Assembly: GCF_038900055.1 (NCBI RefSeq)
Contig: NZ_JBBMQM010000001.1
Coordinates: 1,240,001-1,304,000, forward strand
Reading direction: 5' to 3'
DNA: 64,000 nt
Source: Henriciella sp. AS95
GTDB taxonomy: Bacteria > Pseudomonadota > Alphaproteobacteria > Caulobacterales > Hyphomonadaceae
Below, piece after piece: positions 56,023 to 59,595 of this stretch. The notes beneath the pieces are model-generated. The model saw only the letters and a program-made list of their open reading frames with translations, was not told where the DNA came from and searched no databases. Within the stretch, counting starts at the first letter, position 1. Each line of letters starts with the position of its first letter. The position numbers and the translations under genes are program-made.

Positions 56023-57333
56023 ATGCGCCAGATGTCCCCCATTCTCATAGTTTCGATTGCGGCGCTTTGCGTCGGTTGCGCAGGCAAGGCCGATGCGCCT
56101 GTCTCGATTGGTTACGGCGCGTCACCCGTGCTGCCGAAGCCGGAAAACAAGCTGATCCCGACGGTAAAGGTCGCCGATGCGACGGGCTGGCCGGCCGGCG
56201 AGATGCCGATTGCCGCTGACGGGCTGGAGGTACAGGCCTTCGCAAGCGGGCTCGACCATCCGCGCTGGCTCCACGTTCTGCCGAATGGCGATGTGCTGGT
56301 CGCAGAAACCAATGCGCCGCCACGGCCAGAGAATGGCGGGGGTATTCGAGGCTTCTTCATGAAACAGGCGATGGAGAAAGCCGGTGCCGCCGTGCCGAGC
56401 GCCAACAGGATCACGCTACTGCGCGACACCGACAGCGACGGCGTGGCCGATGAAAGCCATGCCTTTCTCACCGATCTCAATTCGCCCTTCGGCATGCAGC
56501 TTGTCGGCGACACGCTCTATGTGGCCAACACAGATGCGATTGTCGGTTTTCCCTATGAGGAGGGTGCAACAAGTATTAGCGCGCTCGGCGAAACGCTGAC
56601 GGAACTGCCGGCCGGCGAGATCAATCATCACTGGACGAAAAACATCCTCGCCTCTGAAGACGGCACGAAACTTTATGCGACCGTGGGCTCCAATTCGAAC
56701 GTGGCCGAGAACGGCATCGACGCCGAAGAGGGCCGCGCCGCGATCTGGGAAGTCGATATCGAAACCGGCGAGAAACGCCTCTTTGCAACGGGCCTGCGCA
56801 ATCCCAATGGCATGGACTGGAATCCCTCATCCGGCATGCTCTGGACCGCCGTCAATGAACGCGACGAACTCGGCGACAATCTGGTGCCTGACTATATGAC
56901 CTCGGTTCAGGATGGCGCCTTCTATGGCTGGCCGTGGAGCTATTATGGTGACACCGTCGACACGCGGGTCAAGCCGGCCAGGCCGGACATGGTCGCCAAG
57001 GCGATCGCGCCTGACTATGGGCTCGGCAGCCACACGGCCTCTCTCGGTCTCGAATTTTCCGAAGAGACAGATCTCGGCGCTGACTACGCCTCAGGCGCCT
57101 TTATCGGCCAGCACGGCTCCTGGAACCGGAAACCCCGAAGCGGCTACAAGGTCGTCTTCGTCCCGTTTGACGGCGCCCAGCCCTCGGGCCAGCCGCAGGA
57201 CGTGCTGACCGGCTTCCTCGATGGCAACAAGGCACGCGGCCGTCCGGTCGATGTCGCGACCGCAAAAGATGGCGCGCTTCTGGTGACCGATGATGTCGGC
57301 AACACCGTCTGGCGGATCAGCAAAGCGGACTAG
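56023..57333 (+). CDS. Sorbosone dehydrogenase-like, PQQ-dependent sugar dehydrogenase family protein
   Basis: A 436-residue exported protein (Cys 16 and Cys 19 near the end of the signal, so probably a lipoprotein). It has the six-bladed propeller pattern of L-sorbosone/soluble glucose dehydrogenases: GLDHPRWLHVLPNGDVLVAET, NSPFGMQLVGDTLYVANTD, TGLRNPNGMDWNPSSGMLW and IGQHGSWNRKPRSGYKVVFVPF. Such proteins may use PQQ, though the enzyme activity of most members is unproven. No PQQ synthesis genes are nearby. The start is supported by GGAG five bases before. Confidence 0.88.
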   Translation: MRQMSPILIVSIAALCVGCAGKADAPVSIGYGASPVLPKPENKLIPTVKVADATGWPAGEMPIAADGLEVQAFASGLDHPRWLHVLPNGDVLVAETNAPPRPENGGGIRGFFMKQAMEKAGAAVPSANRITLLRDTDSDGVADESHAFLTDLNSPFGMQLVGDTLYVANTDAIVGFPYEEGATSISALGETLTELPAGEINHHWTKNILASEDGTKLYATVGSNSNVAENGIDAEEGRAAIWEVDIETGEKRLFATGLRNPNGMDWNPSSGMLWTAVNERDELGDNLVPDYMTSVQDGAFYGWPWSYYGDTVDTRVKPARPDMVAKAIAPDYGLGSHTASLGLEFSEETDLGADYASGAFIGQHGSWNRKPRSGYKVVFVPFDGAQPSGQPQDVLTGFLDGNKARGRPVDVATAKDGALLVTDDVGNTVWRISKAD

Positions 57334-57357
57334 GGCAGGGCGACGTACTTGTAAAAA

Positions 57358-57412
57358 ATATTTGACAGTCAAAAATTTTTGACTATCTATCGTGTCAGAT
57401 ATTTTTGACACG
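57358..57412. promoter_or_regulatory. Promoter and operator array with repeated ATTTTTGACA half-sites
   Basis: The -35 box TTGACA (57362-57367) and TATCTA (57384-57389) are separated by 16 bases. Overlapping this are the perfect palindrome AGTCAAAAATTTTTGACT (57367-57384) and a second dyad with arms CGTGTCA (57391-57397) and TGACACG (57406-57412). The half-site resembling ATTTTTGACA occurs five times in alternating orientation (57358-57367, 57367-57376, 57375-57384, 57393-57402, 57401-57410). The AT-rich block is striking in its GC-rich surroundings. The XRE protein at 58332 is the likely binder. Confidence 0.65.
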
Positions 57413-57427
57413 GAGAGAAGACACGTC

Positions 57428-57850
57428 ATGTCATTCCACGAGAAATCGTCCTGGGCGATGGCCGCCGTCATGCTGGCTGGCCTCATCTACTATTTCAGCC
57501 TGGTTGACCGCATGTCGAAGGGCATGGAGACGCTCGCGCCGCCCGTCCTGCCGGTCGTGGTGACCTATGTGGTCGTCATCGTCATCCTGTCGATTGCGAG
57601 CCATATCCTGATCGCCATCTCCAAACCGTCCGAAGCCGACGACACGATGGATGAGCGCGACAAGCTGATCGCCGCCCGCGCCGGAAACATCGCTGGCGTG
57701 CTGCTCGGGCTCGGCGTGCTGGGCGGGCTGGGCGCCTACCTCTTCACCTATGATGGCAACCTCATGTTCCACACTGTCTTCGGCGCGATGATGATCGCCC
57801 AGATCGCCGAATATGGCGCGCGGATCGTCTACTACCGCGGCGGCTTCTGA
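57428..57850 (+). CDS. Small membrane protein A of an XRE-linked pair (DUF2178-like)
   Basis: A 140-residue protein with four predicted helices (about 10-28, 36-58, 88-108, 112-135). Its central segment DTMDERDKLIAARAGN resembles the cytoplasmic DER motif of small DUF2178-type membrane proteins, which are often paired with a short XRE regulator. It shares this motif, length and helix order with the following protein, so they are paralogues. ATG at 57428 was selected. A frame extension to 57392 lies in the operator. Confidence 0.72.
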   Translation: MSFHEKSSWAMAAVMLAGLIYYFSLVDRMSKGMETLAPPVLPVVVTYVVVIVILSIASHILIAISKPSEADDTMDERDKLIAARAGNIAGVLLGLGVLGGLGAYLFTYDGNLMFHTVFGAMMIAQIAEYGARIVYYRGGF

Positions 57851-57891
57851 GCCGACCTGAACCCATGTCTGCCTCAAACACGGAGACTTCC

Positions 57892-58329
57892 ATGCCTTAC
57901 TGGGAACGCAATACCATCATCCTGGGGCTCGGCAGCCTGATCGGTGGTACCTACTATCTCGTCATGGTGCTCATCCAGTCGATGGCCATTGGCGCCGTCG
58001 CACCGCCCAGCCTGTTCACCTTCATCAGCTACCTCGTCCTTCAGATCGCGATTTCGGCGATTGGCGTGTCGGTTTCGACCGCTCGAGCCTCAAAAGGCGG
58101 AGAACTCGCGGGCCTGCCCGGCGGCATGGATGAACGCGATACTCTGGTGAAAACGAAATCCGAAGCCGGGTATGGCCACCTGGTCTCGGCCGTGATGTTC
58201 CTCGCCCTCGCCGCCTGGTTCATTCACCAGAATGCAAACCTGCTGTTTCACAGCGTTGTAGTGGGTCTTGTCTTCGGCGAACTCGGCCGCGCGGTTATTC
58301 AACTCGTCAATTACCGCCGAGGCGTCTGA
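57892..58329 (+). CDS. Small membrane protein B of an XRE-linked pair (paralogue of A)
   Basis: A 145-residue, four-helix membrane protein. The loop GGMDERDTLVKTKSEAGYG aligns with DTMDERDKLIAARAGN of protein A, and the C-termini also match (GRAVIQLVNYRRGV and GARIVYYRGGF). ATG 57892 has GGAG seven bases upstream, and I prefer it to ATG 57865. The stop is three bases before the XRE gene, so all three genes form one transcript. The function is unknown. Confidence 0.72.
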   Translation: MPYWERNTIILGLGSLIGGTYYLVMVLIQSMAIGAVAPPSLFTFISYLVLQIAISAIGVSVSTARASKGGELAGLPGGMDERDTLVKTKSEAGYGHLVSAVMFLALAAWFIHQNANLLFHSVVVGLVFGELGRAVIQLVNYRRGV

Positions 58330-58331
58330 CA

Positions 58332-58550
58332 ATGGCCAAACGCCCCCCGATCACCAATCGCGTGAAGGAACTGCGCGAAGCTCATGACGGCATGAGCCAG
58401 GCCGCACTCGCCAAGGCGATCGGCGTCACTCGCCAGACCGTCATCGCGATAGAGCAGGGGCGCTATTCGCCCTCGCTTGAAAGCGCCTTCCGGATATCGC
58501 GCGTGTTCGGCGTCGGTCTCGAAGATGTCTTTGGTTGGACGGAAGACTGA
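58332..58550 (+). CDS. XRE-family HTH transcriptional regulator (small, YozG-like)
   Basis: A 72-residue protein consisting only of a Cro/CI-type helix-turn-helix domain: MSQAALAKAIGVTRQTVIAIEQGRYSPSLES is the two-helix core (about 21-50), and VFGVGLEDVFGWTED ends it. It has no ligand domain, so it probably senses something through the membrane proteins or acts as a simple repressor. It is coded as the third gene of the pair's operon and likely binds the operator array at 57358-57412. Confidence 0.9.
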   Translation: MAKRPPITNRVKELREAHDGMSQAALAKAIGVTRQTVIAIEQGRYSPSLESAFRISRVFGVGLEDVFGWTED

Positions 58551-58629: not shown

Positions 58630-59595
58630 ATGACCCGCCCAATTCTCCACCTCACTACCGCCGCGCTCGCTCTTGGTATCGCCGCGCCCGCCGCTTTGGC
58701 GTCCGTCGCCCCGGAGGATGTGAATTCGGCCAGTTATGAGGGCGGCGCGCTGCCGGATGGTCAGAGCGCCATCACTGCGAAAGTGCAGGTCATGCTCGAT
58801 CGGGCTGGCGTCTCGCCAGGCGTAATTGACGGCTACACGGGTGAGAATGTCGACAATGCCATTCGCGATTTTGAAGAGATGAATGGCTTTGAGATCGACG
58901 GCGTCATGGACGAGAAAGTCTGGGAAGCGCTCGGCGAGGCTGACACGCTCACCACGACTTACACGATCACCGAAGAAGACCTCGCCGGCCTGATGCCGGA
59001 CCTGACCCATGATTATGGCGATTTCGCCAAACGCGACCGGCTTGGCTTCCGGACTATCGAGGAACTGGTCGCAGAGGCCTACCACATGGACCGCGACCTT
59101 CTCATCGACATGAACCCGGACGCCGACTGGTCAGCCGGGTCGGAGGTGGCGGTGCTCGATCCGGGGGCCGCTCTTGAAGGCAAGGTCGCGAAGATCACCG
59201 CTGACAAGTCCAGGGCGCAGCTCCTCGCCTATGACGCTGATGACAAGCTTATCGCCAGCTATCCGGCAACGATCGGTTCCAGCGACACGCCGAGCCCGGA
59301 AGGCAGCTACAAGGTGACCGCAATCGCGATTAATCCGACCTATTCCTACAATCCGGAAAAGAACTTCCAGCAGGGCGATAATGCAGAGGCGATGACGCTT
59401 CCGCCCGGCCCGAACGGCCCCGTCGGTACGGTCTGGATCGATCTGGAAAAGGACACGTTCGGCCTCCACGGCACCGAAGATCCGCACCTTGTTGGCAAGG
59501 AACAGTCACATGGCTGTATCCGCCTGACGAACTGGGACGCGACTGAACTTGCCGGGATGGTCGATGAGGGCGTCGAAGTGACATTTAGCGATTAG
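58630..59595 (+). CDS. L,D-transpeptidase with peptidoglycan-binding domain
   Basis: A 321-residue exported protein (signal cleaved near ALAS). Residues about 50-105 form a PG-binding-1-like domain (VQVMLDRAGVSPGVIDGYTGENVDNAIRDFE). The YkuD catalytic domain follows, with the HGTED His and the SHGCIRL motif whose Cys is at about residue 296. It makes 3-3 cross-links or attaches proteins to the wall. AAGGA precedes the ATG at 58630. Confidence 0.95.
   Translation: MTRPILHLTTAALALGIAAPAALASVAPEDVNSASYEGGALPDGQSAITAKVQVMLDRAGVSPGVIDGYTGENVDNAIRDFEEMNGFEIDGVMDEKVWEALGEADTLTTTYTITEEDLAGLMPDLTHDYGDFAKRDRLGFRTIEELVAEAYHMDRDLLIDMNPDADWSAGSEVAVLDPGAALEGKVAKITADKSRAQLLAYDADDKLIASYPATIGSSDTPSPEGSYKVTAIAINPTYSYNPEKNFQQGDNAEAMTLPPGPNGPVGTVWIDLEKDTFGLHGTEDPHLVGKEQSHGCIRLTNWDATELAGMVDEGVEVTFSD

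Follow-up and report, generated by a model that had tools for sequence, protein, structure and literature searches.

Tandem small membrane proteins and a mini-XRE regulator behind a three-dyad operator array: a probable autoregulated module in Henriciella sp. AS95

The window analysed here, a 64-kb (64,000-nucleotide) stretch of the genome of Henriciella sp. AS95, carries an operon in which two small membrane proteins (MP1 and MP2) and a mini-XRE regulator are encoded behind an array of candidate operators. We propose with moderate confidence that the operon is a self-contained, autoregulated module whose repressor is modulated by the membrane proteins encoded with it. Its features, in window coordinates, are as follows.

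57350-57367, no strand: candidate operator O1, TGTAAAAAATATTTGACA; its right half includes the -35 element TTGACA, and it matches the operator consensus without mismatch
57362-57390, plus strand: probable promoter, with -35 TTGACA at 57362-57367 and a weak -10, either TATCTA at 57384-57389 or ATCTAT at 57385-57390
57367-57384, no strand: candidate operator O2, AGTCAAAAATTTTTGACT, a perfect 18-bp palindrome that fills the promoter spacer
57393-57410, no strand: candidate operator O3, TGTCAGATATTTTTGACA, lying over the probable transcription start
57428-57850, plus strand: MP1, 140 aa, a four-helix membrane protein according to its model, with DER at residues 75-77
57892-58329, plus strand: MP2, 145 aa, a paralogue of MP1, with DER at residues 80-82
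58332-58550, plus strand: mini-XRE regulator, 72 aa, HTH_3, CylR2-like

All three genes are real and constrained, as dN/dS against relatives is 0.15-0.17 for the membrane proteins and 0.06-0.09 for the regulator (0.06-0.17 overall). An earlier note on this DNA had outlined the same genes, two membrane proteins and a 72-residue XRE protein, and each is under purifying selection. The paralogy of MP1 and MP2 that it proposed is borne out by 28% identity (E 9.9e-8). An in-frame ATG at 57865 offers an alternative start for MP2 that adds nine residues (MSASNTETS), and this longer form may be real, since the extension is nearly identical to MSTSNTETS in the relative locus L003. Directly 3' of the operon, on the same strand, lies a gene for an L,D-transpeptidase (YkuD) with a peptidoglycan-binding domain (58630-59595). 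The gap between the regulator and this gene is 79 bases and the two could be co-transcribed; the L,D-transpeptidase gene did not emerge as a conserved neighbour of the operon in relatives.

The promoter array consists of three 18-bp dyads, that is, six half-sites, which together span the promoter from the -35 element through the entire spacer to the probable start site, with dyad centres 17 bp apart for O1-O2 and 26 bp apart for O2-O3. The 18-base palindrome described in the earlier note is present and is the sole perfect palindrome of at least 18 bp in the window; of 20000 dinucleotide shuffles made from the promoter region, 9 contained a perfect palindrome of such length. Likewise, the second dyad of the same half-site is found at 57391-57412 (CGTGTCA...TGACACG), and the -35 element and spacer are covered by sites as claimed, O1 holding the former and O2 filling the latter. 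The count of five half-sites, in contrast, has to be raised to six, as the sequence bordering the palindrome on its left forms a dyad too (57350-57367). A strict sigma-70 promoter scan did not call the operon promoter, and TTGAC is kept at the place of the -35 element in most near relatives.

Conservation of the array was assessed with a position matrix built from the six half-sites of the window alone, which was scanned over the upstream regions of related loci. At least three matrix sites were found in 27 of 34 upstream regions of the window's own family and its near kin, where dinucleotide shuffles gave a mean of 0.05. The half-site is thus conserved beside homologues, and its absence there had been one of the two grounds that the earlier note named for giving up its proposal. 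Among more distant loci, at least one site was present in 30 of 35 (0.035 in shuffles). Many distant loci show one or no site with the window's matrix, and the operator sequence therefore drifts. In the near group, start positions placed too far 5' may account for several of the low counts; when later starts were used in a second scan, the third site reappeared in L012, though not in every low-count locus. Spacing is conserved too, most near loci having sites 17-18 and then 25-28 bp apart, which makes cooperative binding of the regulator to the array plausible. The upstream regions of L054 and L073 carry four operators rather than three, spaced 23-18-23 bp, and several distant loci show a spacing of 21 bp. 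The same conservation bears on whether the palindrome could instead be the terminator of the upstream gene, whose stop lies at 57333. The palindrome does follow a gene end, and a terminator-like element was called on the minus strand. Yet the stem is A+T-rich, none was called on the plus strand, the sequence recurs three times, and it is conserved before homologous operons with different upstream genes (e.g., lysyl-tRNA synthetase-like), so that this explanation is hardly credible.

The operators appear to be private to the operon. When up to two mismatches were allowed, the consensus matched O1, O2 and O3 plus two singletons in the organism's own 3.87-Mb genome; the reversed control pattern gave two matches per strand in the same genome, which puts the two singletons at control level. 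A scan of 41 genomes of the family, with one mismatch allowed, left 15 with matches and a known operon position, and 24 of the 26 distinct sites in these lie at the operon, the exceptions being G011:C60:435734 and G105:C1:2453865. The genomes G095, G185 and G190, in which no membrane-protein homologue was found, have no operator site. As sites are essentially confined to the operon in the own genome and in the family, the simplest reading of these sequences is that the regulator has one clear target, its own operon.

The regulator belongs to the XRE (Cro-C1 type) family, its HTH_3 match scoring 61.4 bits against a curated Pfam cut-off of 23, and no match to a LytTR DNA-binding domain is listed for it. 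Its best solved relative by sequence is PDB 9k3w, "Transcriptional regulator, PbsX family" (E 1e-25), although by eye that protein is nearer the genome's other mini-XRE type (L033). The closest named relative with a known function is CylR2, matched by profile at E 3e-22 over nearly the full CylR2 length.

The proposed link between the membrane proteins and the mini-XRE regulator holds well beyond the genus, with near-constant adjacency that reaches other classes of the phylum. Of 200 genomes sampled from the order, 92 have a membrane-protein homologue (query P0003), and one or more membrane-protein genes are followed by a same-strand mini-XRE gene in 30 of 30 close loci (own included) as well as in 40 of 40 further, more remote loci from the order. 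A profile search over 398 genomes of the phylum found homologues in 30, other classes included, and at this class and phylum level a mini-XRE gene follows the membrane-protein gene everywhere except at the weak match L112. The tie between the membrane proteins and the regulator is thus a genetic link, drawn from this constant pairing. Tandem membrane-protein copies recur among the loci. In a tree with some long branches, the window's MP2 shares a clade (support 100/97) with three further second copies from the genus; other tandem pairs fall elsewhere, which suggests repeated origins of such copies. The flanking genes are lineage-specific, lysyl-tRNA synthetase-like in 26 loci and PanB-like in seven (named from their translations); they reflect synteny only and were rejected as a functional clue. 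In one relative, a transposase-like gene, again named from its translation, lies on the minus strand 5' of the operon (L010, 413-1384).

With a small membrane protein encoded before a probably autorepressing XRE protein, the operon also invites comparison with toxin-antitoxin pairs, in which case the membrane proteins would be toxic and the regulator would be the antitoxin. Gene order and the probably tight autoregulation would fit, as would the regulator's similarity to Y4mF/HipB-type antitoxins, which is below cut-off (41.2 bits for the Y4mF family antitoxin model, cut-off 71.65). However, the wide distribution in the order, the lack of any match among 72,556 plasmid records, the purifying selection and the recurrent tandem copies all speak against it, and the membrane proteins had one weak PADLOC match (E 9e-4). 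A toxin-antitoxin function is thus very improbable.

AlphaFold models of MP1 and MP2 show four helices (pLDDT 96.1 and 93.9, respectively), with DER opening the third helix, past the loop that follows helix two (the predicted TM2-TM3 loop). Of the motif's residues, D75 and R77 do not vary across 64 membrane-protein sequences, and E76 hardly does. The motif would be cytoplasmic if the N terminus is inside, an orientation favoured because most members carry a basic C-terminal YRRG; the earlier note's observation that both proteins share a DER motif thus stands, in a loop expected to be cytoplasmic. A Foldseek search with the MP1 model found no significant solved relative (best E 1.3), so the fold gives no functional clue. 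The best VIA-align Z of 7.0 for MP1 is in the range of common helical bundles, and the membrane-protein profile matched nothing meaningful among PDB sequences. TctB and pyrophosphatase were rejected as identities of MP1, their scores being far below cut-off. MP1 scored 14.2 bits against DUF2178 (PF09946), below the curated cut-off of 22.8, and MP2 had no match to it. Nonetheless, a weak profile similarity to DUF2178 was seen in 10 of 64 members at E <=0.01 (best 1.7e-4), and one distant protein (G349), followed by a mini-XRE, is matched by both profiles; no literature on DUF2178 was found.

Two other close mini-XREs occur in the same genome (query P0002). Upstream of each lie genes for small hydrophobic proteins and, at the promoter, a dyad. 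The dyads differ in sequence, reading ATGACAAG-CTTGTCAT and ATGTAACGT-ACGTTACAT.

L033 (G000:C1:43140-46313), 615-1707: second module, a membrane-protein pair and a mini-XRE with its own promoter dyad
L034 (G000:C1:694883-698074), 1062-1701: third module, a small membrane protein and a mini-XRE with promoter dyad ATGTAACGTTGACGTTACAT

Membrane proteins of the L033 type are found in 31 of 60 genomes, with a mini-XRE gene adjacent or near in all 20 of 20 loci of this family. Here, D72 and E73 are invariant and R76 is kept in at least 90% of members, giving D-E-x-x-R in the same place as DER, and hhalign aligns this family with that of MP1 (82%, E 1e-5), DE-R falling on DER. Since the motif aligns at this position in a second membrane-protein family, DE-R looks like a hallmark of the membrane partners of mini-XREs.

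A simpler account would be that the mini-XRE is a plain local autorepressor that keeps MP1 and MP2 low, while these do an unrelated job, for example as a small transporter, a chaperone or a membrane stress factor, and do not contact the regulator. This would agree with an operator found only at the operon's own promoter, which leaves the membrane proteins as the sole clear output, and with their weak, non-regulatory Pfam matches (TctB, DUF2178). Yet two membrane-protein families with very little sequence similarity keep DE-R at the same loop together with a mini-XRE partner, and in the analogous pair of Enterococcus induction requires CylR1 (PMC3709268). We therefore regard plain autorepression as unlikely, while giving it some weight.

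In the preferred reading, that of a module whose membrane proteins modulate its repressor, the 72-residue regulator would bind the three 18-bp dyads over the -35 element, spacer and start site as a CylR2-type dimer and repress its own operon, probably cooperatively. MP1 and MP2, as four-helix proteins, would present the DER loop to the cytoplasm and, through DER, bind or sequester the repressor in response to a change in the state of the membrane or in a ligand, so that repression would be relieved and the amount of membrane protein reset. We infer binding, the dimer, the contact between membrane proteins and regulator, and the signal from position, conservation and analogy. Likewise, the membrane proteins could relay an envelope signal, as suggested earlier. 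More tentatively, and with some doubt on our part, it could be speculated that such modules represent a widespread, undescribed class of proteobacterial membrane sensors, in which a small four-helix protein, defined by a cytoplasmic DE(xx)R loop, is coupled to a dedicated mini-XRE repressor with a private operator array, with several insulated copies per genome and signalling free of phosphorylation.

Among known systems, a literature search for two-gene operons of a membrane protein and an XRE protein found nothing relevant. The LytTR Regulatory Systems (HdrRM, BrsRM) resemble the present module in combining a regulator and a membrane protein in one autoregulated operon with promoter repeats, but they use another DNA-binding family, direct repeats upstream of -35 and positive feedback (PMC6193735). 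A similar feedback could be imagined here, the mini-XRE activating its own operon and the membrane protein inhibiting the mini-XRE, as the two-part layout and the autoregulation are alike and the repeats in those systems lie just upstream of -35 (PMC6193735). However, the dyads in the present module lie over the core promoter (-35, spacer and start site), and a dimer bound there should keep polymerase out; this position points to repression rather than activation and makes positive feedback improbable.

The nearest parallel is CylR1/CylR2 of the Enterococcus faecalis cytolysin locus, a membrane-protein/mini-XRE pair whose regulatory role is known while its mechanism is unresolved (PMC3709268). 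With CylR2 as the regulator's closest named relative of known function, the earlier statement that modules of this type have no known function was too strong. Both systems have a CylR2-like stand-alone HTH protein, a mini-XRE of about 66-72 residues, encoded with a neighbouring small, multi-helix integral membrane protein, and in both a repressor, presumed in the present case, would act at the promoter with no phosphorelay (PMC3709268). In layout, the present module works like CylR1/CylR2. How CylR1 signals to CylR2 is an open question, which the present family makes directly testable, being a large and simple set of conserved pairs from environmental bacteria in which the operators are clear and a candidate contact motif is invariant; if DE-R is the contact, it would define a class of phosphorylation-free membrane signalling. 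The two systems differ in that CylR2 acts as the repressor of a toxin operon whose transcription leads away from the genes of the pair, whereas the sole target seen here is the regulator's own operon, and in that three predicted helices are reported for CylR1, whereas MP1 and MP2 have four and stand in tandem.
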